A stretch of DNA of 64,000 bases, taken from NCBI GenBank assembly GCA_964019135.1, contig OZ025249.1:29835759-29899758 (forward strand). The letters run 5' to 3'. The notes under the pieces were generated by a model, which saw nothing but the letters and a program-made list of their open reading frames with translations, ran no database searches and was not told where the DNA came from. This stretch comes from Arenicola marina. Lineage: Eukaryota; Annelida; Polychaeta; Arenicolidae. Below, in pieces: positions 23,291 through 64,000 of the stretch; position 1 is the stretch's first letter, and every line of letters starts with the position of its first letter. The position numbers and the translations under genes are program-made.

Positions 23291-24359
23291 CCCCGTGGAG
23301 TGCGTATCGGCTCTGCAGGTAGATGCCGATAACAGATTTGAGCATTAGGGAACAATTGTATATTGGGCAATACCGTGAAGGTACGTCAGGTTCGGGTTTG
23401 TTGGAAACAAGAAAGTTTGTTTACGGTCTCGTCGTTGATATTTACATTTTAAATGTTAAGAAATGCATTCACGTAAAGGTGTTAATTATGTAAGTGCCAT
23501 ATTTATGGCATCTATTCTTGATACAATTCGTCAAATTTTGCAGGTTTACTTGAAATACGGACCTCCGGAGAGCCTTTTTTTTTGTTTCATCGAAGTTATT
23601 TTGAGAGATTGAAAATAATGACAAAATACGATGTAGTTTATAGAAGTACCGGTAACTACAGTAAGGATCGTCGTAAGCCGACCTTTCAAGGCCAATAGTT
23701 TGTAAATACACAAGCAAGTAAAACAGGACACAGCAGCTTTAGTAAAAAAAAAACTGTATTTCCCCTTTTGTACAAATATTAGTCTTGCAATAAATAGAAC
23801 CTGAAATCATGTTCGTTAGGCCTTGGTTCCATATCGTATCACATCATGAAGCCATTCGCCAGCGAATTCAGCCGCTTGATGGTGGATTGCCTCTTCCGTT
23901 AATCCCACTGCAAGCCTTGGGTAGTCTACTGGAAACTGACCCAGCAATCACCAAGGTAGGTAATCGCACAAAGTACTTGCTACGCTCTCATACTCGGTGG
24001 AACACTTCCCGTAATACAAACCTCCATCCTTTGATTCAAGAACTTCCATGAAAGGTCATTACAAGCCAACGCCATGGGTCAACTTTCGTACTTGATAAAC
24101 CAATCAAATGAAACCAATATAAATAGTCGATTAACAACGGCTTGCCCAATGGGTGCCTTGTTTACCTCTTTACAAAGTACATAACCCACAGTTCATTAAC
24201 TCAAAAAGGTGCCCCCAACTCTAACCCGCCTTTACACATTTGTAACATAAACAATTGTAAATCCATCCGTTAACACCATGGCGACGAGCAAACGGCAGGC
24301 CAACGTTATTTTACATACGAACAAATGTTTTCAAGAGATTTCTGCTATGCAAACAATTA
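23291..24359. other. convergent LIG4-COG2 3' intergenic region
   Basis: An AATAAA at 23789-23794 is a plausible LIG4 polyadenylation signal, implying a 3' UTR of about 1.45 kb that includes the array. I found no clear AATAAA for COG2 on the other strand. No other gene seen. Confidence 0.45.
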
Positions 24360-29500: not shown

Positions 29501-32500
29501 TGAGACACGCGTTTGCGGTCAGCCTACCCTGAGTCTCCTGTACTCGTCCCCATCTCGCACCGTGGTGAAGCAGAGTGAGATCGCTCAAACGGAAGTACGT
29601 AATATTGAAGGAAGTTTGATTATCTCCATAGGGTCCTATGTTAAACGCGTTCGACTATATACCGAAAAGTTACCGGGCTATGTCGGCGCGTTTATCGGTA
29701 ATAGCTCATCCTACTAGTATCCATCTACAACTGAAAACATGAGAGTGATGGCTTCAATAGGACGCCCGTGGGAACCCCTGCAAACGCCAAAAATCCCTAT
29801 CTTTCACAATGAGGAAATATTTGATAATTTCCTGTGACGTCATTTCCGGGTCGAATCACACAGACAATGGACAACATCTGCTGGGTACCGTCTTACAGTA
29901 CGTAAATTTTTTTGCGTACTGTTTGAAAAAGGCACTTCTGAATTATGCGACAAAATGTGACTGTAATGATAAAGGATAGAGGTTTTTAACATGGAGATTC
30001 CCATAGAGAATTTTGCGCCAGCTCTAGAATCGGAAGTAAGATAGGAACATACCGTTTTTATGTTACAAGCAAACATGGGACCACATTTGCCGCAAGATGA
30101 GTCTACTCGCAATTTTTTGAGATTTTTTTCCGATTTTTGACGATTTTTTTAATGTACCGGAAGTGACGTCACCGTGACGTCATAGTACGTATCCGCGAAA
30201 TTTCAGATTTCACAAAACTCATCATCATCCATATTTCTATGACATGTTACAGACATAGAGCGATATCTTCAACTGAAATGAGTCAAACTATAGAAAAGCC
30301 GTTCAAGGTAATATTTTGCGTTTTTCGAAAAACATAAAACGACGTTTTCCTCGAAAATTAGTATGACGCGTCAAAAAGTGGACAATGTACGAAAGTTGCG
30401 CCGTATCTAGTAGCACGTTATGAAACTTATCCGACGTCTCTAGCTCTAATATTAACGGAGATATGAGCGTTTTACGTTATTTTTTCAAAAAATCGCTGTG
30501 ACCTTGACCTTTGACCTACATACACCGTTAACAAACTTAGCCTCACAATTTTTCATATCTATCTCTAGGTGCAATATAACATTCCTACATGTAACGATGC
30601 GCCCTACAATGCGATGACAAACAAACAAACAAACAGACAAACTAATTTACAAACCGAACATAGTACTATACTGACAGAAGTTTTCAACTTCTGTCAGTAA
30701 AAATGGCTTGCTAACCGTGACAACTTCTACATTTTTGGTTGTATGTAAACTTACCAGTAGTAAATTAGGTCAAAATTGCTTTTGACACAAAGTGAACAAC
30801 GAATTGAAAAAAGTTCACAGCCTATGTCTCAATGTAGATTCTTAGAGTATGAACTTCTTAAATTATAGCAAGAGCACTTATGTCATACATGTGCCATTGC
30901 ATAAGTATATAAGATCATACCTAAAATCATTTACATATTAGAATATTAATAACTATTTACATATTAGAATATTAAAAACCATTTACATACTAGAATATTA
31001 ATAACCATTTATATATTATGATATTAATAACTATGTAAGGCAGGGAATTCTTAATCTACCAGATATTAGTAATGGGAACAGTTACCAAAATGTGATCTAG
31101 GCTTCTGAAATTCCTTAATTTGTCTCTGATTTGGTCTTGAAAGTGAAATTCCCTGATTTTTTTTCCTGCAGGGAATTTTGTTCACCATTTTTCCTGTTTG
31201 ACCTGTGGGAACCCTGGCTGATGCAGATTATTCAATGTCAATATGATTAATGCCTAACCTGTGCTATTAACATTACTGGCAGTTACACAAAGCATAAATT
31301 ATAATTGATTGCAATGTATAATGTAATTAAAAGATATGCAGAACAGCGTCAGCCATTCAAAATATATACCACACCACATGCCTAGCATACCCTTCCCCAC
31401 CCCTCCCTCCCCCAGATATTCTTTCTTGCAGATACAGCACCCAATGCCTTGCCACTAGGTATTAATTAACTTTAAATACCAAATATCCTGGATATTAATC
31501 ATATTAGGCATGTTGGGTAGAAACTGCAGGCATATCTAACTCCATATCACAAATGATATGTACTTGTCAAAGCATCAATAAAAACTAAAAAAGCGCTCTA
31601 ACCCACTGAGCTATCGGGTAGCCTTTTATCTTATCCCAATTTAATTCTTTGTCACCTGATCTGATCATTCATCACCTATACTGGAAAGATATCATAAGAA
31701 TAATATTTATAAATAGAAAAATTATGCAAAAAAAAACAGGAGTGCAACCTTGTTTTATGACAACTGGTTAGATCTATTTATCAATCAGGTGATAACTGAA
31801 ATAACTCAGTTTATGTTTGGCGCAAGTGCCCCCAGGCAAGCCCGTTTCTCTAGGGGCACAACAGTAACAATGTTAAAATCCTTCGACGTTAGTAGGAAAT
31901 CGACTGTAGCTTTTATTATAATGTGTGCTGGAACAATCATAGTGTTTACGTATTCTATATACCTTGTTCTATTATCTGACATCAAAAAAGTATGTCGACA
32001 CTAAGTTGTTTCGATTATATTTTCGCGAAGAAATGTTGGAGCACACAACTGTTTCCTACCAGCCATCCGCCATATTATTTTTTGGCGGATGCCGGTACCT
32101 GTGAATGCGACTTGGTTCCTCCTCTCCGTTAGAATACGACTCTCGGCTAGAGGGCCTTGTCAGTCACTCACTTTGAACTTAAGGACAACAGCAGCGCCCT
32201 CTTTCACAGGCCATTGACTGTTACAAACTTTGGGACCCAGGCTACAAATGCTTCAAATGGTGGCAGGATTCACCAGGTGGCGCTGCATACGCATGGCGGT
32301 TGGTAGGGAAAAGTCGCATGCTCCAACATTTGTTCGCGAAAATATGCTTGGAACAATCTAGTGTTGACACACTTTCTTGATGTCAGAAGATAGAACAAGG
32401 TATATAAAATACGTAAGCACTATTATTGTACACGCCCACATTATAATAAAAGCTACAGTCGATTCCCTACTAACGCAGAAGGATTTTAACATTGTTACCG

Positions 32501-32869
32501 TTGTGCCCCTAGAGAAGCGGGCTTGCCTGGGGGCACTTGCGCCAAAGTTTATGTAGGCCTACACTTCTTTCAATGCAATGTCAAGGCTCTGTCTTATTTT
32601 CAGTTTTAGCAGAGATTCACAAAGCACTGGTATGACTTCCAAGGTTCAACTGACTGTCTGACAGGTCTCAAGGCAAGAGTCAAGACGTCAACTTTGATTT
32701 CAAGACAATTAAGTGACAAGTGAATTGAGTCTCGAGTCGCAAGCGGCCAAGTCAGGGGCATAGTGTTGGCTTGCGAATAGAATAGCGCACACACCTCCTT
32801 GTTAAAGCAGAGCGTAGACGGACCGCTTGGCAGCGGTTGCTTCATTTGCTTTGCCTTCTCTTGTGTCAT
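24360..32869 (-). CDS. COG2: Conserved oligomeric Golgi complex subunit 2, complete, two coding exons
   Basis: Exon 1 is 32869-32795 (25 codons, containing LPSGPSTLCFNKE, like human LPKGPDTLCFDKDEF), with a GTGTGT donor. Exon 2 is 26552-24360, entered after TTTCAG, phase 0, starting EFMRYGFNVEQFV and ending GNGST then TGA. The joined protein is 755 residues (human 738). The N-terminal COG2 domain is clear (residues about 25-160: ELINKDYADFVNLSTNLVGL); the rest is mostly helical, with the conserved C-terminal COG2 region near the end. COG2 is in lobe A of the COG tether, which captures retrograde vesicles at the Golgi. All but the first 25 codons lie in a single 2.2-kb exon, while human COG2 has many exons, suggesting intron loss. 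The 6.2-kb intron holds several mobile elements. Confidence 0.95.
27327..27515. repeat. degenerate 31-32-bp minisatellite
   Basis: About six units of the type GAGCAGATTTTGGCAGTAAA then GCNCCCNNACC. Divergence of 15-25 percent suggests an old array. It lies in the hAT-like element in the COG2 intron. Confidence 0.65.
28072..30699. mobile_element. 2.6-kb unclassified repeat with a terminal hairpin
   Basis: The ends TACTGACAGA (28072-28081) and TCTGTCAGTA (30690-30699) are inverted. The right end is a strong hairpin with a 10-bp stem (CTGACAGAAG and its complement near 30671-30696), preceded by (ACAA)n. The segment contains a 30-bp minisatellite (about 28200-28345) and several TGACGTCA palindromes. 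No long frame. Family unknown; extent is inferred from the ends. Confidence 0.45.
31586..31622 (-). mobile_element. tRNA-derived fragment (SINE head)
   Basis: On the minus strand it reads CGATAGCTCAGTGGGTTAGA then GCGC, the D-arm and A box of a tRNA, preceded by GGCTACC. It then runs into unrelated AT-rich sequence with no B box, so it is a truncated SINE or tRNA pseudogene. Confidence 0.55.
31816..32546. mobile_element. 731-bp long-TIR (foldback) element, copy 2, in COG2 intron
   Basis: Same family as 10645-11372, with ends TTTGGCGCAAGTGCCCCC and complement. The 7-bp duplication GTTTATG flanks it at 31809-31815 and 32547-32553. Arms are about 220 bp; the centre, with TTGGCGGATGCCGGTACCTG, is shared with copy 1. 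No coding capacity. Confidence 0.9.
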
Positions 32870-33808: not shown

Positions 33809-34022
33809 AGGGCCCCAGAGGGGCCTTTTCGACACGGCGACACGGCGATTTTTAAAATCGACAACGCGACATTGGGGTTGTCTTAGAATCGACATGCGAC
33901 ATAAGACTTAGCGACACGCGACATGGACCTTTTCTTAAAATCGACACGCGACATGGACCTTTTCTTAAAATCTACACACGACATGGACCTTTTCTTAAAA
34001 TCGACACGCGACATGGGGCCCT
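33809..34022. mobile_element. 214-bp transposed minisatellite element, copy 1
   Basis: Ends AGGGCCCC/GGGGCCCT are flanked by ATTTTT on both sides (33803-33808 and 34023-34028), a likely target duplication. The body is almost wholly repeats of CGACACGCGACATGG with spacer ACCTTTTCTTAAAAT (30-bp unit, about three copies) plus degenerate versions. It is homologous, in reverse orientation, to 52437-52700. Confidence 0.75.
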
Positions 34023-46600: not shown

Positions 46601-49600
46601 ACTCATGAAGTACGTCCAGAAGTTGCTAGACAAAGGAGTCAAGGTTGGCGATGAAGTATCGTCTCTGTTTGCCGGCGATCTCAATCCTGTCGCGCCAAAG
46701 GCTCAGAAGAAAGTGCCGGTACCAGATGGGTAAGTTCTTTTAACTTTCAACCGTTTGCTCATTCAAGCAGGTCTTTTATGGCGACAAGTAACAATTCAAA
46801 CAGCGCACAATAGTGGAATGCCTTATGCTAACGTTAGTGTTCTTAGTGGCAGTAATTATGGGGCAATTAAATATGAATTTATGAGCTTGCCCCAAATCCT
46901 AAACTTGGAGCTGTTGGTTAGGCAAAATGAAATGGCAAAATGGCCTGTTTTAGTTATGAGTTTGACCACCGGAATTATTTGCTTTCGGTATTACTTCTGT
47001 CAAATATGGTCTGAACAGCCAACAACTATACCAATTCGCTATTACTAGTCAGCTACTTTCACCCTGAGTTGAAAACTGGAAATTACCTAAATCGCCTTAC
47101 CTCGAGTATTGGTGGAATGAAAGCACACGTGGTGATATACTAGCAATACATCTTGCTTGATGCTTGATGTATTTCACAGTCTGGATCTGGACGTCTGGAT
47201 CAACCAGCCGCCTTCCGAAAGTTCCGACGAGGAGATCGTTACGCCCAATGTGTTCCTGCCTGTCGATGAGCAACGGTGAGTCGTCCTCGCCTCGTCCCCG
47301 CCTCGTCCTCGCCTCGTCCTCGCCTCGTCCCCACCTCGTCCTCACCTCGTCCCCGCCTCGTCCCCGCCTCGTCCTGCCACCGTTGGATAGTCAGGCTAGC
47401 ATTGCGTCTTACCTAACACGTGTCACGCTGAGTGCGAATCCAGACAGGCGGCTTCTTCAGGCGGTGTCCAGTATATAATTACTTGTCGTTACGTGTTGTA
47501 ATTATTAAAGTGCGGTAGCGTTTGTAAAGCACTGAAGGGTTATGGTGATGGAATATTGCGGGACCTACATTTGAGAGATGTCACGTGTAGCTTATAAAAA
47601 TGTAAAAAGCTATGTTAATTTATCAAGGTGTAGATACTGACGAGCGTTGGCATAATTACGAGCTTGTCATGTCCGTAGCTGTGAAGTCTCGTGAAGACCC
47701 TGTGAAATCTCGGCTCACGCTCATCCTGTACTTGCTGCATGTTATTTCATTAGATACCCATCTTAACATAAGATTCCAGCATAACGTTGATAGTGGAATA
47801 TCAAGTTAGCCTGTTATATAATATACTGAATAACTAGATATCTGGCATGATACCGATAATTGGAACATCTTGACTGACTAACGGCCGAACAGTATGAGGA
47901 CAAAGACTCTACTTGATATATCTGACATAAGAAGATGAACAGTTGAACAGTTAGAGCAAGACGATGAATCATTAACAAGCGGACATAGCATAAGCGTTTG
48001 TACTCAAGTGTGGTGTTAGCATGGCAAGGCAGGTTGTCCAACTCCGCATTGTAGACATATCTGTCAAAACGTAAAGCTTAAATAGCTTTATTTCATGTAT
48101 TTTAGCATGCCTACGCGGGCGATATGTATCTGTGATATTACTACATGCATGGTGTTTCTACACATTTGACAGGGGCCGAAAAAACCAGCGGTATGATACT
48201 CGTAAAGACTGTAAAGATTTGTATTACTGCTTTAGAATCGTTAAGCTGCTATGCATGAATATCACAGCTTGCTTTTGATATCTATACCCACTGACCAATG
48301 CCTGCTATCCCGATTACGCTTGTAGAGTGGGACTGCTTGTGATGGGAGATAACTACTTCGTTTAGAATATGTTAGTGTTCCTCTAACATATAATAGTCTT
48401 GTGGGCAATAGCGTGACCACCGCTGTGGTTGGGAGGTTGGGCGGTGGGGGAGAGGGGGGACAGTGCTTACATGCTCATATAGCAACCACTTAATTTGCTC
48501 CGCAGTGTAACACCTGAATAATGCTCGCAAAGCATGAGCTCTTGCTTAGCCGATCGTCTTTGGTTACTAATTACTGACCCCAATAGCTTCACGTATAAGT
48601 TTTTTGATGATTAGTGTGTATACTAACGAAGACTATGATGTTTTTAGCTGCTTGTAGCGCAGTTGTCGTGAGAGTGTATGTGTTGTCTTCATATAGTCGC
48701 CTTCATCATCTAATTATCTATTATCTCCATATCTGTGATACGCCGGTCCTTCATCGGTCCCAGTGTATGTGCTCTTTCTATTAATATTCCCATTATATTC
48801 TGTTGTTACGGTCGTGTATATATGTGTATGACCTATATGACCTTGAACTTGGCTGTATGTACTATGGTCATCGTTCGTCACCCCGTCACCGGGTGTACAT
48901 AGTCATCGTGCATAAACGAATGGCATACACTTTTAAACTGTATATTCTTATGGCTCTTGATTCTACAATGTTCCATATCACTAAGACCAGCTGGTGGGGA
49001 AATGATGGGCTTGATTAGGGAACGCTGTTAGAAGGTCATGGTGGTAAACGTCGCATTATCTTAGGTTTAGCTTGTGTGAAGCTGTACTGTACGTTGTTCG
49101 TTGACTCTTCAGATCGGTTTATGAGACTGGAGATGGCAAGAAGGTTCCAGAACCCTCCCCTGAGGAGCTCACTAAGGTAGGACGCGGCATACGCTGCTTA
49201 ATCCGTTTGTTCAATGAAGACGATTTCAAGGTTCACATCATTTTCAAAGCGGAATACTGCCTCGAAACATATATCGTCATAAACTGTATAAAAGTTTCTC
49301 TCTTCCGATCTGTGGCGTCTTAGCAAGTATGTAATAATTGGGGGTGATCAGAAGTCTCATTTCGGTTGTCCTTGTCACTTGTTAGCGACGAGAACACAGA
49401 GAGCAAGAACAGATGAACAACCCTCACTACCTGAAGGGAGACATTAAACAGAAGGTACGAACAACAGGGTTTCTGATGACTTTGCTCACTAGTCCTCCTG
49501 CAATATACTTAGTCCCATGCTTTGGGAGGTTGCTTGGCCCATCATAATTATAGTCCTGTCGTTTAACGTTTTTGATCAAACAGTTTCTCGACATGTATGA

Positions 49601-52600
49601 AGCATCTGCAAATCGCAGATGTCGTAGTGTTAATGTCGGTTTTAAAAAAGTTTGAAGGTATCGTTTTATGACAAGAAAAAGCCTCGATACTTGCAGTATC
49701 GCGCGTGGCTAATGTGGTTATTGGTATATTGCTGCACTGGTCTTGCTGCACAGAAACCCGAAATATTCCGTGTAAGTATTAAGGATTTTCCTCCAAATTG
49801 TGTCGTAGAAGAAGCTATTGCAAAGTAAAAAAGTCTTTGCCGAGGGAGAATGTTTAAAATGAAACTTTTATTTTGGTTGCTATGCACGCTTACTATGTCG
49901 GCGACTTCCGCTTTTCTGTTTGAACAATAGAAATTACTGATTTGTCTGCAAAAAGAGTTTCAATTCTGCTGCATCGACATGTGTGATTGGCCAGTGTCCT
50001 GTTCATTAGTGTCCGTGTGATTCGTCCATATCTCTATGATGTCCGTTGGATCTAGCTCGGAGCCGGATACCTGTGTTACGTAGCCTAAGCATGGCCAGGG
50101 GAATATTTCTGCTGAAGGAAATAGCATGACCCATTAAGATATTACATGTATGCAGAGAGGTTTTCGCTATTGCCCCACTATCCCGTACCTAAACTAATTC
50201 TTAGAACGCTTGTAAGCCTTTAGAGTTTCTGTCAACTTTTTGGTCGGTTTAAAGATCTGTAGTTTTACAATTTACCCTTTATGATCAGAAGCTACCTGGG
50301 GCTGTGTATATGGAATATGGGTACATGGTTCCGTCAAGAATTGCTCTGTATTACATAAATGCCGTATACATTGCATGATCTTCTGACCGTTATTCAGTGA
50401 ACCACTTATTTCATTCTTGACATCTAACATCCAACTTTGGCCTGATGTTTTCCTTTTTGCATGCAATGATCGATGTCAGCGTCAGTAACTCTGATATCTT
50501 CGGGTTTGTTATGTAGTTACAATACCCGTTAGATATATGTGCACCTGATGAGGTTTTCTGCATTTTAACCATTCATTTGAGGTCATTAATGTCTTGGTGT
50601 AACTTCAGAAACGCGAGGAAAAATCTAAAGGTGTTAACAACATCAACGACATTCCTGTTGCGGAGATCGATCTTCAAGTGCCTCTCCATGTGCCAGGTAT
50701 GTCAGTCCCGCCGTAAAGGCACCCAATCAGACAGCCGCAGCCTCTCCCCGGGCTCCGTAAGCAGTGATAAACCATCCTAGAGCAATTGTATATGTGAATC
50801 CCTGACCCCCTTTAGCCATGCTGCGCACCACAATAGCGCAAACCATCATACCTTCTTTCCCAAAGAAGACGCTGTTTGTTAATCGATGCATATGCTGTGT
50901 AGACATGTGTACATTACAATATCACCATTTAAGGAAAACATTGTAATGGTTCAGCTAATAACCAGTGCTAAACAACAGTATCTCAGGCAGTGATCCCTTG
51001 GTATCCTGCACTGACGCGTGTTTCCAGAGTCGACATATCACTTTGCCCTTTATTTAACTCCTTATACATACATGTATATACATATACATACCGAACAGTG
51101 ATTAGAATAGCCCTGCCATATATCTTACCCCTGTGGCCTATTGCACGTACATAGTTCAGCCGGCTACGGGGCTTAATCGACTAAAATCGCCTATTGTTTA
51201 CATGGCGACGTTAGCCGACTGCGTTCGTGAAATCCGCCACTGGAATCTGGGACGCGGTTTTATGTTAACGGTTGCTGATTGGTTGTCTCAGGTCTGACGT
51301 CATCCGACAAGTACCTGATGGAGCACAAGGAACACGAGAGACAGAAGCGCGGCAAGAAGACGAAGAAGCTGAAGAAGAAGAGCAAGAGGAGGAAGGACGT
51401 GGCGGACTCGGAGTCTGAGGAGGACGCGCTCGACCACGTGGTCAGCACTGAGATGGAGGCTCCGGAGGTGAGGGGACCACAGTGTTGTGCTTGTCCCTGA
51501 TGGGTATTTTGTGCATGTAACTGTTGGGTATTGCAATCTGTGCGGCTATTACGGATATGGTGAAGCGGGCACAAAAATAGCTTACATACCGCATCCTTGT
51601 ACGATACGAAAGAAAAGGGACCGAAGGGCTGTGTTGCCTGTTATTGCATCTCTTCGGTTTATGTTAACTTCTTGTGTGCCTGGTCACCTTCTGGTACGGC
51701 ACAAAAGTAAAGCGGAACGCAGAGCCGATTTGCATTATTACGGTATATGTTTACCTTGTTGTGTGCCTTGGGTTTGCAGGGCGCCTCGGGCTCTGACGGC
51801 GATGACGACAGGAGAAAGGCCGACGACCCGCATAAGATGTTGGACATAAACTTGGACGAGTAAGTATGTCGAGCGCCCTCTGTCGTGGCGATACAGAACC
51901 TGGAGAGTGTATTCCAGAGCTAGATCTGTGACATTGATCTGTGCAAAGCCACTAGTTAACTTTGAATGTTAGTATATTTTCTGGTGGTTCTATGAATAGA
52001 ATGTCCGACACCGATTACCTACTCATATCAACTAATATATGAAGTTTCAGTTAGGGTTATTTTCTCTCGCTGAGACCACCAGACGTTGATTGCAATAGCT
52101 GGTTGCAGTGTTAGATGCGTTAAGAGTGATACGTGAGTTATTATTGGATGCTGCTGATGACGGGGTACCAAATATGTACATTGAGAAACTGACCTCTCGA
52201 AGCCAGACCAGATTCTCACGTTACGTACTCCTGCAGCCGGACCAGATTCTCACGTTACGTACTCCTGCTGCCGGACCAGATTCTCACGTTACACACTCCT
52301 GCAGCCAGACCACATTCTCACGTTACATACTCCTGCAGCCAGACCACATTCTCACGTTACATACTCCTGCAGCCAGACCACATTCTCACGCTACGTACTC
52401 CTGCAACCGTCGCTTGACGCGACATGCTGGCCCCCTAGGGCCCCTGAGGGGGGTAGCCATGTCGCGTGTCGATTTTAAGAAAAGGTCCATGTCGCGTGTC
52501 GATTTTAAGAAAAGGTCCATGTCGCGTGTCGATTTTAAGAAAAGTTCCATGTCGCGTGTCGCTAAATCTTATGTCGCGTGTCGCTAAATCTTATGTCGCG

Positions 52601-55600
52601 TGTCGCTAAATCTTATGTCGCATGTCGATTCTAAGACAACTCCAATGTCGCGTTGTCGATTTTAAAAATCGCCGTGTCGAAAAAGCTCGTATGGGGCCCT
52701 CCCCTGTGACGCGTGTTCTGATCTCCCTGCAGGCCGCTCCAGGACTTCGAGCGGCTGCCGGTGCGGGCGCATCGCCTGGTGATAGAGGCGGCCGGAGAGG
52801 ACGAGCGGACGGTGGCCCAGGTGGCCGGGGAGGAGAACCACCGCAAGAAGAAACACCGAAGAGAGAAGGAGGAACACAAGAAACATCGCGACAGGGAATC
52901 TAAGAAGGACAAAAAGGTAAAGGTCTTAATAAGTAACTTGATTAAAATATTTAATAAATAATAAAAGTCCTGAAACATAAAAGCAGAAAAAGTCCTTAAC
53001 TTATTTGAATTACTACAAACTGTAATGTGGTATGTCTGTTAGCATAAGTTAAACATGTTTGTATTTGGCGCAACACAAGAATCAGCTTTATCCACGGATA
53101 TACACATAGCTCATGTATAATTTGAATGTATGGTTTAAAACAACCCTCCCGTTAAAATAGTGTCGTTATTATCGGTAATGATATATCTATGTAATAGATT
53201 ACGTTGCCAACTGAGACCCCAGTACTTCCTTTTGTCACATATCATTGGTATTGCCTATGCGTTATTATGGCACTTCGTGTGATTACTACGACATGTAAAG
53301 GTTGATTGCGTGTCCTGTTTGCCGCAGTCCAAGAAGTCTAGTAAGAGCAAGTCTCGGGCGGGGGGCGCCGACCTCCTGATCGCGGGCCCGGGGGAGGGGG
53401 CGGCCCTGGCCAACCACATCGAGGACGGGGAGGCAGAGGAGGCGGAGGAGGCCCGCTCTCCCGATCTGCTGCCCAAGGCAAACAAGGTCAGAAACCTCCC
53501 TAACGTCCCCTTACCCAGGCAACCAGCCATGGTGGGCCGGCTACTGGGTCCTTGAGACTCCCCCTTCCGCTCTTTTGACTGTTGTTCTTCTTGATGTAAC
53601 ACGTCGTCGTTGGTGGTGACTGAAGCTGGATATGCGATGTTAGATTATTTTTTTGGCATTTGCTGCTTCATTTGACTGTTTCATCTCCGTATATTACGTA
53701 ATCGGGACTTTTCTTTTGCTAAATATAATATCTGAGTTTGCATCTAAATGGCACTCTTATTATGACATTATCTGAGTCGAATTATCAGTAGCTAGGTAGC
53801 CATGTGGGGTGAATGCTTTAAATGGGAAAACGTGAAAGTTTAAATGGGACGTTTGAGACAGATCCGCAGTTGGGACCTTCAGCATATATATATCAAAGTA
53901 AGATTTGCAGGCTAGGCCCATCGAAATAATTTAACTTTCAAGCGAAACATATGTAAGTGAGACTTTGAATCTAGACAGACCTCAAAGTTGAACCTTCAAG
54001 CTAGATACAACACGATGGGACACGCCGGCTTGACAAGTCTTGATTAAACCCTTAGACTAGAGAGACATCTGAGTAAGTGACTTTCAAGCTGGACAAACAT
54101 TTAAGGGGCACCTTTAAGCTGGCAAGACATAGGTGAAATGTCCGACATGAACCAGTGGAAGTACAAATAAAGGTGGTGTTTGCTCTGCGGCACCGCCACA
54201 CTGACCATTTTGTGTGTTAAGACTTCTGGCATGTACTCACTTGGTAGATCTATCTAAGTAAGGCGTCAGTATTAGCGTGTGCCTCAAATCTTGGTTATTT
54301 GTTCACCTACTTTGCATGAGTGTCCCGAGTGTCACCTATATATGCAGTGTGTGTGACCTCTGATGCTTTCAGGGTGGTCCACCAAGCGCCGATACCGAAG
54401 ATATGACAGTATGTAATGAGCCACGTCACGATAACCACACCTTGCCCTCCCTCCCTCCCCTTCTCACCCCTCCCCTCCCTTCCCTTCTCACCCATTCCCC
54501 TCCCTTCCCTTCTCTCCCATTCCCCTCCCTCCCCTTCTCACCCCTCCCCTCCCTTCCCTTCTCACTCCTCCCCTCCCTTCCCTTCTCCCCTCTACCCTCC
54601 CTCCCGTTCTCTCCCATTCCCCTCCCTTCCCTTCTCTCCCATTCCCCTCCCTCCCCTTCTCACCCCTCCCCTCCCTTCCCTTCTCACTCCTCCCCTCCCT
54701 TCCCTTCTCCCCTCTACCCTCCCTCCCGTTCTCTCCCATTCCCCTCCCTTCCCTTCTCCCATTCCCCTCCCTTCCCTTCTCCCATTCCCCTCCCTTCCCT
54801 TCTCCCATTCCCCTCCCTTCCCTTCTCACCCATTCCCCTCCCTTCCCTTCTCCCATTCCCCTCCCTTCCCTTCTCCCATTCCCCTCCCTTCCCTTCTCCC
54901 ATTCCCCTCCCTTCCCTTCTCCCATTCCCCTCCCTTCCCTTCTCACCCATTCCCCTCCCTTCCCTTCTCCCATTCCCCTCCCTTCCCTTCTCCCATTCCC
55001 CTCCCTTCCCTTCTCACCCATTCCCCTCCCTTCCCTTCTCTCCCATTCCCCTCCCTCCCCTTCTCACCCCTCCCCTCCCTTCCCTTCTCACTCCTCCCCT
55101 CCCTTCCCTTCTCCCCTCTACCCTCCCTCCCGTTCTCTCCCATTCCCCTCCCTTCCCTTCTCTCCCATTCCCCTCCCTCCCCTTCTCACCCCTCCCCTCC
55201 CTTCCCTTCTCACTCCTCCCCTCCCTTCCCTTCTCCCCTCTACCCTCCCTCCCGTTCTCTCCCATTCCCCTCCCTTCCCTTCTCCCATTCCCCTCCCTTC
55301 CCTTCTCCCATTCCCCTCCCTTCCCTTCTCACCCTCTACCCTCCCTTCCCTTCTCCCATTCCCCTCCCTTCCCTTCTCCCATTCCCCTCCCTTCCCTTCT
55401 CCCATTCCCCTCCCTTCCCTTCTCCCATTCCCCTCCCTTCCCTTCTCACCCATTCTCCTCCCTTCCCTTCTCCCATTCCCCTCCCTTCCCTTCTCCCATT
55501 CCCCTCCCTTCCCTTCTCCCATTCCCCTCCCTTCCCTTCTCCCATTCCCCTCCCTTCCCTTCTCCCATTCCCCTCCCTTCCCTTCTCCCATTCCCCTCCC

Positions 55601-58600
55601 TTCCCTTCTCCCATTCCCCTCCCTTCCCTTCTCCCCCTCTACCCTCCCTTCCCTTCTCCCATTCCCCTCCCTTCCCTTCTCCCATTCCCCTCCCTTCCCT
55701 TCTCCCATTCCCCTCCCTTCCCTTCTCCCATTCCCCTCCCTTCCCTTCTCCCATTCCCCTCCCTTCCCTTCTCACTCCTCCCCTCCCTTCCCTTCTCCCC
55801 TCTACCCTCCCTTCCCTTCTCCCCTCTACCCTCCCTCCCGTTCTCTCCCATTCCCATCCCTTCCCTTCTCTCCCATTCCCCTCCCTTCCCTTCTCCCATT
55901 CCCCTCCCTTCCCTTCTCACCCATTCCCCTCCCTTCCCTTCTCCCATTCCCCTCCCTTCCCTTCTCTCCCATTCCCCTCCCTTCCCTTCTCACTCCTCCC
56001 CTCCCTTCCCTTCTCCCCTCTACCCTCCCTTCCCTTCTCCCCTCTACCCTCCCTCCCGTTCTCTCCCATTCCCCTCCCTTCCCTTCTCTCCCATTCCCCT
56101 CCCTTCCCTTCTCCCATTCCCCTCCCTTCCCTTCTCACCCATTCCCCTCCCTTCCCTTCTCCCATTCCCCTCCCTTCCCTTCTCTCCCATTCCCCTCCCT
56201 TCCCTTCTCTCCCATTCCCCTCCCTTCCCTTCTCACCCATTCCCCTCCCTTCCCTTCTCCCATTCCCCTTCCTTCCCTTCTCACCCATTCCCCTCCCTTC
56301 CCTTCTCCCCCTCTACCCTCCCTTCCCTTCTCACCCATTCCCCTCCCTTCCCTTCTCACTCCTCCCCTCCCTTCCCTTCTCCCCTCTACCCTCCCTCCCG
56401 TTCTCTCCCATTCCCCTCCCTTCCCTTCTCCCATTCCCCTCCCTTCCCTTCTCCCATTCCCCTCCCTTCCCTTCTCCCATTCCCCTCCCTTCCCTTCTCA
56501 CCCTCTACCCTCCCTTCCCTTCTCCCATTCCCCTCCCTTCCCTTCTCCCATTCCCCTCCCTTCCCTTCTCCCCCTCTACCCTCCCTTCCCTTCTCCCATT
56601 CCCCTCCCTTCCCTTCTCCCCCTCTACCCTCCCTTCCCTTCTCACCCATTCCCCTCCCTTCCCTTCTCACCCTCTACCCTCCCTTCCCTTCTCACCCATT
56701 CCCCTCCCTTCCCTTCTCCCATTCCCCTTCCTTCCCTTCTCACCCATTCCCCTCCCTTCCCTTCTCCCCCTCTACCCTCCCTTCCCTTCTCACCCATTCC
56801 CCTCCCTTCCCTTCTCACCCCTCCCCTCCCTTCCCTTCTCACTCCTCCCCTCCCTTCCCTTCTCCCCTCTACCCTCCCTTCCCTTCTCACCCATTCCCCT
56901 CCCTTCCCTTCTCACCCTCTACCCTCCCTTCCCTTCTCACCCATTCCCCTCCCTTCCCTTCTCACCCATTCCCCTCCCTTCCCTTCTCCCATTCCCCTCC
57001 CTTCCCTTCTCCCATTCCCCTCCCTTCCCTTCTCCCCCTCTACCCTCCCTTCCCTTCTCACCCATTCCCCTCCCTTCCCTTCTCACCCTCTACCCTCCCT
57101 TCCCTTCTCACCCATTCCCCTCCCTTCCCTTCTCCCATTCCCCTTCCCTCCCTTCTCACCCATTCCCCTCCCTTCCCTTCTCCCCCTCTACCCTCCCTTC
57201 CCTTCTCACCCATTCCCCTCCCTTCCCTTCTCACCCCTCCCCTCCCTTCCCTTCTCACTCCTCCCCTCCCTTCCCTTCTCCCCTCTACCCTCCCTTCCCT
57301 TCTCACCCATTCCCCTCCCTTCCCTTCTCCCATTCCCCTCCCTTCCCTTCTCCCATTCCCCTCCCTTCCCTTCTCCCCCTCTACCCTCCCTTCCCTTCTC
57401 TCCCATTCCCCTCCCTCCCATTCCCCTCCCTCCCCTTCTCACCCCTCCCCTCCCTTCCCTTCTCACTCCTCCCCTCCCTTCCCTTCTCCCCTCTACCCTC
57501 CCTTCCCTTCTCACCCATTCCCCTCCCTTCCCTTCTCCCATTCCCCTCCCTTCCCTTCTCACCCATTCCCCTCCCTTCCCTTCTCCCATTCCCCTTCCTT
57601 CCCTTCTCACCCATTCCCCTCCCTTCCCTTCTCCCCCTCTACCCTCCCTTCCCTTCTCTCCCATTCCCCTCCCTCCCCTTCTCACCCCTCCCCTCCCTTC
57701 CCTTCTCACTCCTCCCCTCCCTTCCCTTCTCCCCTCTACCCTCCCTTCCCTTCTCACCCATTCCCCTCCCTTCCCTTCTCCCATTCCCCTCCCTTCCCTT
57801 CTCCCATTCCCCTCTCTTCCCTTCTCCCATTCCCCTCCCTTCCCTTCTCACCCTCTACCCTCCCTTCCCTTCTCACCCATTCCCCTCCCTTCCCTTCTCC
57901 CATTCCCCTCCCTTCCCTTCTCACCCATTCCCCTCCCTTCCCTTCTCCCATTCCCCTCCCTTCCCTTCTCCCATTCCCCTCCCTTCCCTTCTCACCCTCT
58001 ACCCTCCCTTCCCTTCTCACCCATTCCCCTCCCTTTCCTTCTCCCATTCCCCTTTCTTCCCTTCTCACCCATTCCCCTCCCTTCCCTTCTCCCCCTCTAC
58101 CCTCCCTTCCCTTCTCACCCTCTACCCTCCCTTCCCTTCTCACCCATTCCCCTCCCTTCCCTTCTCCCTTTCCCCTCCCTTCCCTTCTCCCCCTCTACCC
58201 TCCCTTCCCTTCTCACCCTCTACCCTCCCTTCCCTTCTCCCATTCCCCTCCCTTCCCTTCTCCCATTCCCCTCCCTTCCCTTCTCCCATTCCCCTCCCTT
58301 CCCTTCTCTCCCATTAGCCTTCTTTCCCTTCTCCCCCTCTACCCTCCCTTCCCTTCTCCCCCTCTACCCTCCCTTCCCTTCTCACCCTCTACCCTCCCTT
58401 CCCTTCTCCCATTCCCCTCCTTTCCCTTCTCCCATTCCCCTCCCTTCCCTTCTCCCATTCCCCTCCCTTCCCTTCTCCCATTCCCCTCCCTTCCCTTCTC
58501 CCATTCCCCTCCCTTCCCTTCTCCCATTCCCCTCCCTCCCCTTCTCTCCCATTCCCCTCCCTTCCCTTCTCCCCCTCTACCCTCCCTTCCCTTCTCACCC

Positions 58601-61600
58601 TCTACCCTCCCTTCCCTTCTCCCATTCCCCTCCCTTCCCTTCTCCCATTCCCCACCCTTCCCTTCTCCCATTCCCCTCCCTTCCCTTCTCCCATTCCCCT
58701 CCCTTCCCTTCTCCCATTCCCCTCCCTTCCCTTCTCCCATTCCCCTCCCTCCCCTTCTCTCCCATTCCCCTCCCTTCCCTTCTCCCCCTCTACCCTCCCT
58801 TCCCTTCTCACCCTCTACCCTCCCTTCCCTTCTCCCATTCCCCTCCCTTCCCTTCTCCCATTCCCCTCCCTTCCCTTCTCCCATTCCCCACCCTTCCCTT
58901 CTCCCATTCCCCTCCCTTCCCTTCTCCCATTCCCCTCCCTTCCCTTCTCCCATTCCCCTCCCTTCCCTTCTCCCATTCCCCTCCCTTCCCTTCTCCCATT
59001 CCCCTCCCTTCCCTTCTCCCATTCCCCTCCCTTCCCTTCTCCCCCTCTACCCTCCCTTCCCTTCTCACTCCTCCCCTCCCTTCCCTTCTCCCATTCCCCT
59101 CCCTTCCCTTCTCACCCTCTACCCTCCCTTCCCTTCTCCCATTCCCCTCCCTTCCCTTCTCCCATTCCCCCCTCCCTTCTCTTCTCTCCCATTCCCCTCC
59201 CTTCCTTTCTCTCCCATTCCCCCCCCTTCCCTTCTCTCCCATTAGCCTTCCTTCCCTTCTCCCCCTCTACCCTCCCTTCCCTTCTCCCCCTCTACCCTCC
59301 CTTCCCTTCTCCCCCTCTACCCTCCCTTCCCTTCTCCCATTCCCCTCCCTTCCCTTCTCCCATTCCCCTCCCTTCCCTTCTCCCATTCCCCACCCTTCCC
59401 TTCTCCCATTCCCCTCCCTTCCCTTCTCCCATTCCCCTCCCTTCCCTTCTCCCATTCCCCTCCCTTCCCTTCTCCCCCTCTACCCTCCCTTCCCTTCTCA
59501 CTCCTCCCCTCCCTTCCCTTCTCCCATTCCCCTCCCTTCCCTTCTCACCCTCTACCCTCCCTTCCCTTCTCCCATTCCCCTCCCTTCCCTTCTCCCATTC
59601 CCCCCTCCCTTCTCTTCTCTCCCATTCCCCCCTCCCTTCTCTTCTCTCCCATTCCCCTCCCTTCCTTTCTCTCCCATTCCCCCCCCTTCCCTTCTCTCCC
59701 ATTAGCCTTCCTTCCCTTCTCCCCCTCTACCCTCCCTTCCCTTCTCCCCCTCTACCCTCCCTTCCCTTCTCCCCCTCTACCCTCCCTTCCCTTCTCACTC
59801 CTCCCCTCCCTTCCCTTCTCCCATTCCCCTCCCTTCCCTTCTCACCCTCTACCCTCCCTTCCCTTCTCCCATTCCCCTCCCTTCCCTTCTCCCATTCCCC
59901 CCTCCCTTCTCTTCTCTCCCATTCCCCTCCTTCCCTTCTCTCCCATTCCCCTCCCTTCCCTTTTTCCCCTTTACCCTCGCTCCCCTTCTCCCCCTGTACC
60001 TTTCCTTCCCCTCTCCCCCTCTACCCTCCCTTCCCTTCTTCCCCTCTACCCTCGCTCCCCTTCTCACCCACTCCTCTCCCTTCCCTGCTCACTCGTCCTC
60101 TCTCCTCCTTTCCCTTCTCGGCTCTAATCACCCATCTCCTCCCATCTATTCTCTCCCCCTCTCCTCCCTTCCGTCCTCACCCCCTCACCTCCCTTCCCTC
60201 ACAAGTACTCTCCTCTAACCCAGCAAATGCTTTCAGACTTTGACGCAGCAATCCCAGTACGTTTAACCCAGTCGACGGTAAACGTCTGCCTGGGTCTCTT
60301 CCAAATACTATTCTGTACAGTTGCCGTTTTTCTTTTGTCTTCACGCGCCAGCGAATGGTGGAGACTTGGTCTGGCTTTACTTATCCCCCACTTCCCCATC
60401 CCCCACTCCCCCACGTCCGTCCCCCATTTGCCCGTCTCTCACTTACCTGTCCCCCACTTACCCGTCTCTTACTTACCCGTCTCCCACTTACCCGTCCCGA
60501 TCAAAGCTAGTGACACTGTTTGGTTTTTTTCATGTCAATAGCGGCATTGATACTATTAAAAAAATGTCGCTGACTTGAAAAAAAGGAAGATGCCTTGGTA
60601 TTAGCCCCAACGTGTACATCCTGTATATAACATACAGCACAATGCCCTATCTGCGACCTGTGAGTGTCCCGGTAGACATAATGGGCCGTTGCACAGTGCA
60701 CCCAGGTCATTATTTCACCTGCGTTTACACTATGCTGGTACTAAACCAGTTACACTGTGGCACGTAATATCACATTTTAGTAAGAAATTCCTATGCTAAC
60801 TGCCGTCACAATCCATCTGGAATGCTTCAACACTCACAAGCGAAGGTGGAATGGAAAAAGATGGTCATGAGCATTAACTTTATCAAGCAGAAATTCAAGA
60901 CAGTTTGTATATATATATAGCTTTCCTGTGGATACTGGTGTGGGTTTTATGCATGCCTATACCCTGAGAGGTTGTAATCGAACAGATGTCCGAACAATCT
61001 ATACATCTATTCTGTGAACAAACCTGCTGTGTTTATGATAGACTTGTTCAATTTCTGTTCCGAACATCAAAAGGATAATCTGCTAAGACACATCAGCTGC
61101 TTGTCTTTTTGTTCATTTCTTCAATTGAATGACTTGATGTTGCGTTATTTTACTTGTATTTGGTATTACTTGCATCTGTAGATTTGTATTTGCATGAAAT
61201 AGTGACTACATTGCATAACCGATAGTTTTATATGTCACTGGTGGTGTTTAAACTGGTGTTTCCGTTTGTTTGTCGGGGGAAACCACTGTCGTGAACTCCA
61301 TTCACCATGTCATCAAAATATGTAAAGCTGAAGGGACCGATGCTATTGCATATAATCGATAACCGTTTAAATTAATCCCATGCGTTATTTCTGGCGAACG
61401 GTTGCTATTCATCATACGTGTTAATCTCTTTGCTATCCGCTGACCCCGCCTTGTTGTCTCCCCCCCCCCCCCCCCCCCGCGACAGGCGGCCGACCTTGAG
61501 TTCTGGCTGACTAATAGCGAGGCGCGGCCGGCCGGCGCCGCAGACGACACCAAGAAAACGGCTGCCGAGTACGAGACGCTGGAGTCGACGCCGCACCCCG

Positions 61601-64000
61601 AGCACAACGCGCCTACCGTGTTGCTGGACGGCGAGCCGGAGGAGGAGGTGAATGGGGTGAGAGAGAGCGCAGAGAATAAAACCTGAACCACAGGGGAGGA
61701 GGGAATCATATCTCAGGTTATTGGGGACGAAGACATCATTGAAGTAGAGGATATGAGAAATCATGGCTCACTGGATGTCACTGAGAACGTAATCTTAAAG
61801 CAGTATGTCTATTAATTTAGCAGTAGTTATGTTGTTCTTTATATTAACGTTCGTGTGCAAATATAAGATGAACTTCTATGGTTTTGACAGAAGTCCAAGA
61901 AGTCAAAGAAAAAGAAGCATGAGAAGAAGGAACGACGACATAAAAAAGAGAAGCACAGACGGGAGAGAAAGCAGAGTGAATACATCGTGGCTGAAGGCAT
62001 CACGACACCCTCCAAGGAACAGCTTCCCCCCTCTCAGGCCGCCACACCGGCCGCCTACAAACTGCCGGTACGTGGCTAACCCACTCCACATTGTCCTCAC
62101 AACCTATTAGAGCAGCTCCCACCCTCCCAGGCCGCCACACCGGCCGCCTACAAACTGCCGGTACGTGGCTAACCCACTTCACATTGTCCTCACAACCTAT
62201 TAGAGCAGCTCCCACCCTCCCAGGCCGCCACACCGGCCGCCTACAAACTGCCGGTACGTGGCTAACCCACTCCACATTGTCCTCACAACCTATTAGAGCA
62301 GCTCCCACCCTCCCAGGCCGCCACACCGGCCGCCTACAAACTGCCGGTACGTGGCTAACCCACTTCACATTGTCCTCACAACCTATTAGAGCAGCTCCCA
62401 CCCCCCCAGGCCGCCACACCGGCCGCCTACAAACTGCCGGTACGTGGCTAACCCACTTCACATTGTCCTCACAACCTATTAGAGCAGCCCCCACCCTCCC
62501 AGGCCGCCACACCGGCCGCCTACAAACTGCCGGTACGTGGCTAACCCACTTCACATTGTCCTCACAATCTATTAGAGCAGCTCTCATCCTCCCAGGCCGC
62601 CAAACCGGCCGCCTACAAACTGCCGGTACGTGGCTAACCCACTTCACATTGTCCTCACAACCTATTAGAGCAGCCCCCGACCCTCCCAGGCCGCCACACC
62701 GGCCGAATACAAACTGCCGGTACGTGGCTAACCCACTCCACATTGTCCTCACAACCTATTAGAGCAGCTCCCACCCTCCCAGGCCGCCACACCGGCCGCC
62801 TACAAACTGCCGGTACGTTGCTAACCCACTTCTCATTGTCCTCACATCCTATTAGAGCAGCCCCCCCCCCTCCCAGGCTGTCACACCGGCCGCCTACAAA
62901 CTTCCGGTACGTGGCTAACCCACTTCTCATTGTCCTCACATCCTATTAGAGCAGCCCCCCCCCCCCTCCCAGGCTGTCACACCGGCCGCCTACAAACTTC
63001 CGGTACGTGGCTAACCCACTTCTCATTGTCCTCACATCCTATTAGAGCAGCCCCCCCCCCTCCCAGGCTGTCACACCGGCCGCCTACAAACTTCCGGTAC
63101 GTGGCTAACCCACTTCACATTGTCCTCACAACCTATTAGTGCAGCTCCCACCCTCCCAGGCCGCCACACCGGCCGCCTACAAACTGCCGGTACGTGGCTA
63201 ACCCACTCCACATTGTCCTCACAATCTATTAGAGCAGCTCCCACCCTCCCAGGCTGTCACACCGGCCGCCTACAAACTGCCGGTACGTGGCTAACCCACT
63301 TCACATTGTCCTCACAACCTATTAGAGCAGCTCTCATCCTCCCAGGCCGCCAAACCGGCCGCCTACAAACTGCCGGTACGTGGCTAACCCACTCCACATT
63401 GTCCTCACAATCTATTAGAGCAGCTCCCACCCTCCCAGGCTGTCACACCGGCCGCCTACAAACTGCCGGTACGTGGCTAACCCACTCCACATTGTCCTCA
63501 CAATCTATTAGAGCAGCTCCCACCCTCCCAGGCTGTCACACCGGCCGCCTACAAACTGCCGGTACGTGGCTAACCCACTTCACATTGTCCTCACAACCTA
63601 TTAGAGCAGCTCTCATCCTCCCAGGCCGCCAAACCGGCCGCCTACAAACTGCCGGTACGTGGCTAACCCACTCCACATTGTCCTCACAATCTATTAGAGC
63701 AGCTCCCACCCTCCCAGGCTGTCACACCGGCCGCCTACAAACTGCCGGTACGTGGCTAACCCACTTCACATTGTCCTCACAACCTATTAGAGCAGCTCTC
63801 ATCCTCCCAGGCCGCCAAACCGGCCGCCTACAAACTGCCGGTACGTGGCTAACCCACTTCACATTGTCCTCACAACCTATTAGAGCAGCTCCCACCCTCC
63901 CAGGCTGTCACACCGGCCGCCTACAAACTTCCGGTACGTGGCTAACCCACTTCACATTGTCCTCACAACCTATTAGAGCAGCTCCCCCCCCCCCCTCCCA
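34630..64000 (+). CDS. AP3D1: AP-3 complex subunit delta, 3' end beyond window
   Basis: Exons: 34630-34725, 36632-36727, 37024-37104, 37331-37411, 37637-37744, 38085-38214, 38552-38691, 38900-38973, 39155-39204, 40751-40800, 42775-42823, 43117-43262, 43905-44053, 44387-44513, 45195-45298, 45882-46113, 46584-46729, 47180-47275, 49113-49176, 49386-49454, 50609-50696, 51292-51467, 51780-51859, 52733-52916, 53328-53486, 54373-54408, 61486-61656, 61891-62067. They sum to 3159 nt, 1053 codons, with phases compatible. Residues about 1-619 are the adaptin N-terminal solenoid, very close to human (STNNWVLIKIIKLFGALTPL, HKDLILQCLDDKDESIRLR). Then come an acidic hinge and Lys-rich blocks typical of delta adaptin (DLEFWLTN matches human DLDFWLS). 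The ear domain is not in the window. AP-3 sorts cargo from endosomes to lysosomes and lysosome-related organelles; delta is a large subunit of its core. Confidence 0.96.
35415..36208. mobile_element. 794-bp TA-flanked MITE in AP3D1 intron 1
   Basis: The ends TAATTTCTGGGGCATAAGTC (left) and its near complement ending CCAGAAATTACGG (right) form imperfect inverted repeats of about 28 bp, bordered by TA on both sides. Internal variants of ATAAGT(T/C)(G/A)CACC recur. A TA target site suggests a Tc1/mariner-like origin. No transposase. Confidence 0.7.
39205..40750. other. AP3D1 intron 9
   Basis: AT-rich, no repeat family or gene recognised. It ends with the short exon 10 acceptor TTACTTACAG. Confidence 0.4.
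40801..42774. other. AP3D1 intron 10
   Basis: AT-rich with a (TA)n run at about 40842-40867. Small open frames here show no family resemblance and no splice logic. Nothing else seen. Confidence 0.4.
43313..43604. mobile_element. 292-bp Tc1/mariner-type MITE
   Basis: Ends CAGTGGAACTCCGCTATTAA and the complement of CAGTGGAACCCCGCTTTAAG are flanked by TA. The body is a run of GGTGGTCTCATTAGCGGGG-like repeats. I recall similar CAGTGGAACCCCGC repeats as common in invertebrate genomes. It lies in AP3D1 intron 12. Confidence 0.85.
44551..44910 (+). repeat. 40-bp minisatellite, exactly nine copies
   Basis: The unit TCATCAGAGCAAACATTGTG then CCAGAGCATCCCTAGCTCGG repeats nine times over 360 bp, with two substitutions visible in unit 2 only. 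The near identity implies very recent expansion or gene conversion. It begins 37 bp after AP3D1 exon 14. Confidence 0.95.
45400..45881 (+). repeat. 39-bp minisatellite ending in the AP3D1 exon 16 acceptor
   Basis: Five perfect 39-bp units (45649-45843), each TTATTGTGTACTATAACCAA then GGGCTCGGGCGATCACCAG, are preceded by about six decayed units of the type ATAACCATGG...TATCACCAG. The true acceptor segment (TGTACAACCACTGGGCTCTT then GATTATGGCAG) looks like one more diverged unit. Because 39 is divisible by 3, a repetitive open frame appears; it is not a gene. Confidence 0.85.
46140..46225 (+). repeat. G-rich simple repeat
   Basis: GGGGTGGGGGC-type repeats with a run of 11 G follow the AP3D1 exon 16 donor. 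The coding strand is G-rich here, so the RNA could form a quadruplex. Confidence 0.6.
47276..47385 (+). repeat. 12-bp CTCGTCCYCGCC minisatellite at AP3D1 exon 18 donor
   Basis: About eight units of CCTCGTCCCCGC/CCTCGTCCTCGC start within 6 bp of the GTGAGT donor of exon 18. Confidence 0.8.
47386..49112. other. AP3D1 intron 18 remainder
   Basis: No gene, RNA or element recognised in this 1.7-kb stretch; it has a G-rich patch near 48432-48460. Confidence 0.35.
49455..51291. other. AP3D1 introns 20 and 21 around exon 21
   Basis: Apart from exon 21 (50609-50696) I see no repeat, RNA gene or other coding segment. Confidence 0.35.
52202..52405 (+). repeat. 34-bp minisatellite, six copies
   Basis: Unit GCCAGACCACATTCTCACGT then TACATACTCCTGCA, six times, 85-95 percent alike by eye, in AP3D1 intron 23. 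It ends 31 bp before the transposed minisatellite. Confidence 0.9.
52437..52700. mobile_element. 264-bp transposed minisatellite element, copy 2
   Basis: Reverse-oriented homologue of 33809-34022. Ends AGGGCCCC/GGGGCCCT; CCCCT on both sides (52432-52436 and 52701-52705). The body has three 30-bp units with GTCGATTTTAAGAAAAGGTC and three 22-bp units with GTCGCTAAATCTTATGTCGC, where copy 1 has one of the latter. It lies 32 bp before the AP3D1 exon 24 acceptor. Confidence 0.75.
53487..54372. other. AP3D1 intron 25
   Basis: No repeat family or gene seen; loosely recurring phrases (AAGTGAGACTTT..., TCAAGCTAGA) at 53890-54130 hint at a very decayed repeat. Confidence 0.35.
54373..54408 (+). CDS. 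AP3D1: AP3D1 36-nt micro-exon 26
   Basis: After CTTTCAG there are 12 codons (GGPPSADTEDMT) and a GTATGT donor; phase 0 on both sides. Its position between the exon ending PKANK and the exon starting AADLEFW fits the hinge. It could be skipped without a frame change. It immediately precedes the 5.7-kb polypyrimidine array. Confidence 0.7.
54440..60190 (+). repeat. 5.7-kb polypyrimidine minisatellite array in AP3D1 intron 26
   Basis: About 250 units, mostly the 23-bp CCCATTCCCCTCCCTTCCCT+TCT, mixed with related 22-26-bp modules (CACCCTCTACCCTCCCTTCC..., CACTCCTCCCCTCCCTTCCC...). Modules recur in blocks, giving higher-order repeats; the last ~250 bp is more degenerate. The coding strand is nearly purine-free apart from one A per unit. 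The opposite strand reads GGGAAGGGAGGGGAATGGG, a canonical G-quadruplex motif. The array begins about 32 bp after exon 26's donor. Confidence 0.97.
60385..60502 (+). repeat. CCCACTTACCCGTCT minisatellite
   Basis: About seven imperfect units of 14-17 bp such as CTCACTTACCTGTCCCC and CACTTACCCGTCT. It lies in the same intron as the giant array, about 200 bp after it. Confidence 0.75.
60503..61485. other. end of AP3D1 intron 26
   Basis: No gene seen. The exon 27 acceptor is preceded by a pure C run of about 18 bp (61461-61478) then GCGACAG. Confidence 0.45.
61891..62067 (+). CDS. AP3D1: AP3D1 exon 28, parent of the 93-bp array
   Basis: It starts KSKKSKKKKHEKKERRHKK, then SEYIVAEGITTPSKEQLPPS and QAATPAAYKLP, followed by GTACGT. 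The Lys-rich opening is typical of the delta hinge. The last 48-50 nt plus the donor are copied in every unit of the downstream tandem array, so this is the probable seed copy. Confidence 0.85.
62068..64000 (+). repeat. 93-bp exon-plus-splice-site tandem array in AP3D1, continues past window
   Basis: About 20 full units and one cut by the window end. Each unit: GTACGTGGCTAACCCACTTC, then ACATTGTCCTCACAACCTAT, TAGAGCAGCTCCCACCCTCC, CAG, then the 30-nt segment coding AATPAAYKLP. Unit types: A (GCCGCCACA), B (CTCTCATCC...GCCGCCAAA, giving AAKP), C (GCTGTCACA, giving AVTP) and D (poly-C tract, CTTCCG). From 63175 on, C and B alternate, a 186-bp higher-order repeat. All indels are confined to the C tract. 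Confidence 0.97.

Follow-up and report, generated by a model that had tools for sequence, protein, structure and literature searches.

The window analyzed here, a stretch of 64,000 nucleotides of Arenicola marina (assembly GCA_964019135.1, contig OZ025249.1, forward-strand positions 29,835,759 to 29,899,758), ends within a tandem array of units of some 93 bp, the first of which spans the end of exon 27 of AP3D1 and the start of the following intron. With a probability of roughly 0.84, this array is an exon-boundary minisatellite of the "mirage" type known from lancelet genes, the copies of which lie in the intron; most likely, it is without protein function. An earlier sequence-only reading had presented the units as potential in-frame mini-exons, and while its description was accurate, its interpretation is only partly supported.

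Tandem Repeats Finder placed the array at 62020 to 63994 (period, 93; 21.2 copies; 94% matches), and cutting by hand yielded 21 full units between 62020 and 63978, of which 17 measure 93 bp, three measure 94 bp, and one measures 96 bp, followed by 22 bp of a 22nd unit; its status as a repeat, far beyond chance, is thus confirmed. Because the window stops within the array, the count is at least 21 units, and the 3′ end of the array, its total length, and the next exon lie beyond the window. The relevant features, all on the plus strand, are as follows.

34630 to 62067, running past the window end, plus strand: AP3D1, 27 exons found, frame open to 62067.
61891 to 62067, plus strand: AP3D1 exon 27 (exon 28 in the sequence-only reading), ending in KEQLPPSQAATPAAYKLP directly before the donor GTACGT.
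62020 to 62112, plus strand: unit 0, comprising the last 48 nt of exon 27 (62020 to 62067) and the first 45 nt of the intron.
62113 to 63978, plus strand: 20 further full units of 93 to 96 bp, interpreted as intronic mirage copies.
63979 to 64000, plus strand: start of the 22nd unit, cut by the window end.

The array had been thought to begin at 62068 with about 20 units; it is indeed a tandem array, but its start lies 48 nt earlier, inside the exon. Its proposed derivation from the 3′ end of an AP3D1 exon plus the donor was borne out, as unit 0 is the end of exon 27, and on sequence comparison the identity of the gene is firm (PDB sequence match 9rtx_d, human AP3D1, E = 8.2e-299; Pfam AP3D1 domain PF06375 at 51279 to 51497, E = 7.4e-07). 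The exon models used here, for AP3D1 and for the neighboring LIG4, were built from homology and GT/AG consensus, without complementary DNA (cDNA); both are devoid of internal stops, and the joined AP3D1 exons specify 1,041 amino acids. The tail of exon 27 (KEQLPPSQA) pairs with EEQLPPESS of human AP3D1 in an alignment reaching residue 971 (a weak third domain of 11.6 bits) and, accordingly qualified, appears to be coding. The acceptor of exon 26 (61460 to 61485) carries a pyrimidine tract which includes a run of 19 C residues (61460 to 61478).

Three features of unit 0 are those by which mirages are recognized: it spans an exon-intron boundary, the end of the cluster coincides with an authentic gene boundary (as judged from the weak-domain alignment and the frame, which is open to the donor), and it has escaped homogenization, displaying three private differences in its tract, an assessment that applies to the 5′ end of the cluster, the only end within the window. 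The donor GTACGT is unchanged in all 21 units, as had been claimed for both splice signals, whereas the tract ends in CCCAG in 20 of 21, unit 0 (the real exon) having CTCAG. Length changes are confined, as previously noted, to the C tract (4/21 units: 7, 9, 10, and 11). The 30-nt segment between the two motifs is free of stops in every unit and was correctly described as frame keeping and as varying in its residues (AATPAAYKLP in eight units, AVTPAAYKLP in eight, and AAKPAAYKLP in four), although a variant with an A-to-E change (AATPAEYKLP, one unit) had been missed. Immediately downstream, each of the 21 units harbors a TAA in the AP3D1 frame at intron bases 10 to 12 (GTA CGT GGC TAA), and read-through would therefore end the protein.

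We propose that a tandem duplication of 93 bp over the 3′ end of exon 27 and its donor was followed by growth to at least 21 units, possibly through unequal exchange or slippage; the anatomy itself is observed, and the mechanism is deduced from it. The first donor (62067|62068) would then end the real exon, and the copies, situated in the intron, would be removed with it. The mini-exon appearance of the copies arises because the exonic coding sequence for QLPPSQ (CAGCTTCCCCCCTCTCAG) happens to resemble a pyrimidine tract followed by AG; we regard the tract and CAG of every unit as copies of that coding sequence rather than of a former acceptor. Similarly, since the repeat edge and the CAG both fall on codon boundaries of the exon, the in-frame length of the 30-nt segment requires no selection. 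This reading is supported both by the identity of unit 0 with the exon end and by a counterpart array in LIG4, described below, which has lost AGGT in 5 of its 20 units.

Patterns of sequence change provide a further means of assessment. Variable sites number 6/30 in the 30-nt segment (pi = 0.061) and 6/45 in the intronic part (pi = 0.034), a difference which is not significant (P = 0.53) and whose direction is opposite to coding constraint; the segment is thus no less variable than the intronic part, contrary to what tandem cassette exons under such constraint would display. Its five to six changes comprise two synonymous and three to four nonsynonymous substitutions (a CC-to-AA change being counted once or twice), against an expectation of 27 synonymous among 90 possible single changes, a comparison of low power given so few changes. 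In the tract, the three private differences of unit 0 are all synonymous, whereas the substitutions among the copies are all nonsynonymous (4/4; Fisher P = 0.029, on small numbers), based on the 17 units whose tract is 18 nt long, the four indel units being left out, and with changes classified by eye. Coding constraint is therefore seen in the real exon but not in its copies. As for the intact splice motifs, the eight splice positions (AG plus GTACGT) likewise miss all 19 variable columns in 16 of 93 cyclic shifts, and AG and GT alone do so in 42/93 (tract columns again from the 17 units, with the four indel units omitted). Splice signals are, therefore, not clearly preserved beyond chance; their integrity is no evidence of use and can be explained by the youth of the array.

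LIG4, the second gene with a donor-spanning array, and the array itself are located as follows.

10314 to 22326, plus strand: LIG4, 18 exons, complete with stop (PDB match 7lsy_X, E = 6.4e-187).
16416 to 17144, plus strand: LIG4 array, 36-bp unit (15 nt of the end of exon 9 plus 21 nt of intron 9), approximately 20 copies, 84% matches.

This array is built like that of AP3D1 and is more diverged, AGGT being intact in 15/20 units and GT in 17/20. Its AGGT core is not favored over the rest of the unit, as 15 of 36 cyclic blocks are as low in mismatch. Evidence for selection on the copied splice motifs of LIG4 is mixed, in light of the behavior of the donor hexamer considered below. Those LIG4 units that retain AGGT mostly follow a pyrimidine-rich stretch, and each might serve as a donor or an acceptor (dual-specific type).

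The strength of the array sites was evaluated with matrices built from the 43 introns of LIG4 and AP3D1, whose sites were assigned partly by consensus. The array donor CCG|GTACGT scored 7.58, corresponding to the 47th percentile of the 43 real donors, and lies 30 nt from the acceptor-like CAG|GC. The CCCAG|G sites of units 1 to 20 scored only −2.21 to 1.24 (0 to 7th percentile), while the 43 real acceptors have a median of 7.48, a 10th percentile of 2.41, and a minimum of −1.25, and the best of the alternative AGs just upstream (TTAG, AGAG, and GCAG) reached 2.30; acceptors of the quality expected for tandem cassette exons are thus lacking in the units. The spacer between successive 30-nt segments is 63 nt, as had been stated, compared with 156 nt for the shortest of the 43 introns.

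Support for a more general seeding of tandem arrays at donors is only partial. Tandem Repeats Finder rows, merged by hand, gave 25 arrays, 18 of which start within the LIG4 and AP3D1 spans; 7 of these 18 begin in the interval from −60 to +40 nt around a donor (1.89 expected; P = 0.0019), and with random placement inside their own introns, 6/16 are near a donor (1.41 expected; P = 0.0012). The +40 cutoff was picked after inspection of the data, and neighboring arrays are possibly nonindependent; other upper cutoffs from +20 to +100 give P values of 0.001 to 0.004, while +10 gives 3/18 (P = 0.14), and removal of the AP3D1 exon 27 array leaves P values of 0.006 to 0.014 at +20, +40, and +60. Only two arrays, those at 62020 and 16416, truly span a donor, and one other begins close behind it, as listed here.

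47281 to 47375, plus strand: 11-bp unit, 8.6 copies, starting at base +6 of AP3D1 intron 18.

Several observations weigh against the mirage reading. A position-by-position test, which left out 54300 to 60600, revealed no enrichment of nearby duplicates at donors (2/44 versus 8.7% of positions), nor at acceptors (0/43 versus 8.5%). The LIG4 donor hexamer GTTAGT has a mean mismatch of 0.033 versus 0.083 overall, with 4/36 cyclic hexamers being as low, itself included (the figure for AGGTTAGT is also 4/36); such retention may fit weak constraint on the copied donors, or chance. The array donors of AP3D1 are as strong as real ones, so that a copy may occasionally be used. Furthermore, the 43 source introns are T rich, and the matrices consequently penalize C-rich tracts, and the better array acceptors are no weaker than two to three of the 43 real ones.

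Some of these points bear on the suggestion of a splicing or U1 decoy, in which the repeated donors would slow or regulate removal of the AP3D1 intron following exon 27. The array does place 20 extra donors of average strength after the real one, and the LIG4 donor hexamer has accumulated fewer changes than average; nevertheless, the intact AP3D1 donors require no selection, GT has already been lost in 3/20 LIG4 units, and published mirages reportedly leave splicing undisturbed (PMC3087553, PMC3902484). We regard such a role as improbable.

Rather less probable still is the proposal, made in the sequence-only reading, that the units are cassette mini-exons of 30 nt (or of 45 or 48 nt via in-frame upstream AGs) which supply variable Ala/Pro modules to the AP3D1 hinge. 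Its appeal lies in the good donors (21/21), the stop-free segment, and the frame-keeping lengths, in addition to a branch-like CTAAC motif inside GTACGTNGCTAA in all 21 units. The same motif is separated from the donor by only some 12 nt, too short a distance for a unit to be spliced to its direct neighbor with it. The proposal is also at odds with the in-frame TAA and the absence of coding constraint (the share of synonymous changes in the 30-nt segment being near the 27/90 expectation), with acceptors in the 0 to 7th percentile and a best alternative AG scoring 2.30, below the 10th percentile of real acceptors (2.41), and with a 63-nt spacer against a 156-nt minimum; it is not supported. Published precedent falls on both sides, as the number of human UBC units is varied by splicing (PMC10809524), while the authors of the study on lancelet PGBD5 discarded a predicted exon that consisted of repeats (PMC3902484). 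That some transcripts nonetheless splice into the units, so that 10-residue (or 15- to 16-residue) Ala/Pro modules would be included in allele-dependent number, as a UBC-like ladder arising from a mirage, would be surprising; if true, the AP3D1 array would represent a live source of protein variation in the delta hinge.

An assembly or sequencing artifact that inflated a few real copies is the least credible explanation: one of the lancelet globin mirages was misassembled in the draft genome (PMC3087553), and the PGBD5 repeat copy number differs between two assembly versions, although resequencing there spoke against error (PMC3902484), but variants and C-tract lengths are distinct and mixed among the AP3D1 units, a pattern unlike the product of simple read duplication.

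The remainder of the window contains one further gene and a number of other repeats.

24363 to 26561, minus strand: COG2, between LIG4 and AP3D1 (Pfam COG2_N and COG2_C).

COG2 is contained nearly entirely in a single open frame (733 amino acids), with the flanking genes having 18 and at least 27 exons. At the end of LIG4, a 90-bp unit repeated 11 times (22285 to 23295) takes in the last 13 codons, the stop codon, and the adjoining part of the 3′ flank, with no recognized donor. The 8-kb intron 25 of AP3D1 harbors a 5.6-kb array (54449 to 60090) of approximately 235 copies of a unit of about 24 bp, which is 95% pyrimidine on the plus strand and nearly G free. Two copies of a 730-bp element resembling a miniature inverted-repeat transposable element (10645 to 11372 and 31817 to 32546; 91% identical, with inverted ends of about 250 bp) are present, one of them within LIG4 intron 1, as are two related blocks in opposite orientation (33809 to 34016 and 52457 to 52700; 76% identical and partly composed of a repeat of about 30 bp), one of which is located within AP3D1 intron 23. 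No Rfam matches at gathering scores and no transfer RNA genes were found in the window, and neither a repeat end from the window nor the array unit matched anything in scans of viral contigs.

The AP3D1 array represents a large, young, and clean case of a little-studied class of repeat that copies splice sites, and its pairing with the LIG4 array provides material on the decay of copied splice motifs, on the choice of the spliceosome among at least 21 near-identical donors, and on the possible creation of introns and exons via tandem duplication. It also serves as a warning that arrays of this type can be misannotated as exons.

Intron gain through tandem duplication of a segment containing a splice site has reportedly occurred in Drosophila (PMC2891723). 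The corresponding model is that of Rogers (1989; cited in PMC3087553). The AP3D1 array resembles it in that tandem duplication yields new donor/acceptor pairs and differs from it in that there is no sign of any copy serving as a used exon or intron.

Human UBC varies its unit number by splicing at tandem dual-specific splice sites (PMC10809524), and shares with AP3D1 a tandem arrangement in which splice signals flank the units at in-frame spacing. UBC units, however, are coding throughout with AGGT at each boundary, whereas those of AP3D1 present AG|GC and CCG|GT 30 nt apart and a TAA in each. Dual-specific sites of the UBC type were accordingly rejected for AP3D1, where the acceptor-like AG is followed by GC, as was a unit open throughout the gene frame, given the in-frame TAA in 21/21 units.

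The closest counterparts are the lancelet mirages. In those described from Adh3 and the globins, an exon-intron boundary has been tandemly duplicated in the manner of a minisatellite; AG/GT signals recur in many of the units, array length is unstable, the units at the boundary escape homogenization, and, according to Adh3 data and globin reverse transcription-PCR, regular splicing is left undisturbed (PMC3087553). Others were described in troponin C and PGBD5; in the latter, the repeats begin directly at the 5′ splice site, and the exclusion of the predicted repeat-made exon rested partly on a want of support from expressed sequence tags or mRNA (PMC3902484). The sequence-only reading knew of no exon-copying satellite in AP3D1, and we likewise found no report of a mirage in AP3D1 or LIG4 among the open-licence papers listed, although the kind itself is already known from lancelet. 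The array has the same anatomy as the mirages of Adh3, the globins BflGb6 and BflGb9, troponin C, and PGBD5, and it is assigned to the class by anatomy only. Its unit of 93 bp compares with 10 to 72 bp in lancelet Adh3 and 150 to 160 bp in the globins, and its copy number of at least 21 compares with 2 to 7 in the globins and PGBD5; unlike in the lancelet cases as described, an acceptor-like motif and a donor bound a 30-nt in-frame segment every time. From this comparison, the AP3D1 array looks like a new, large member of the mirage class.

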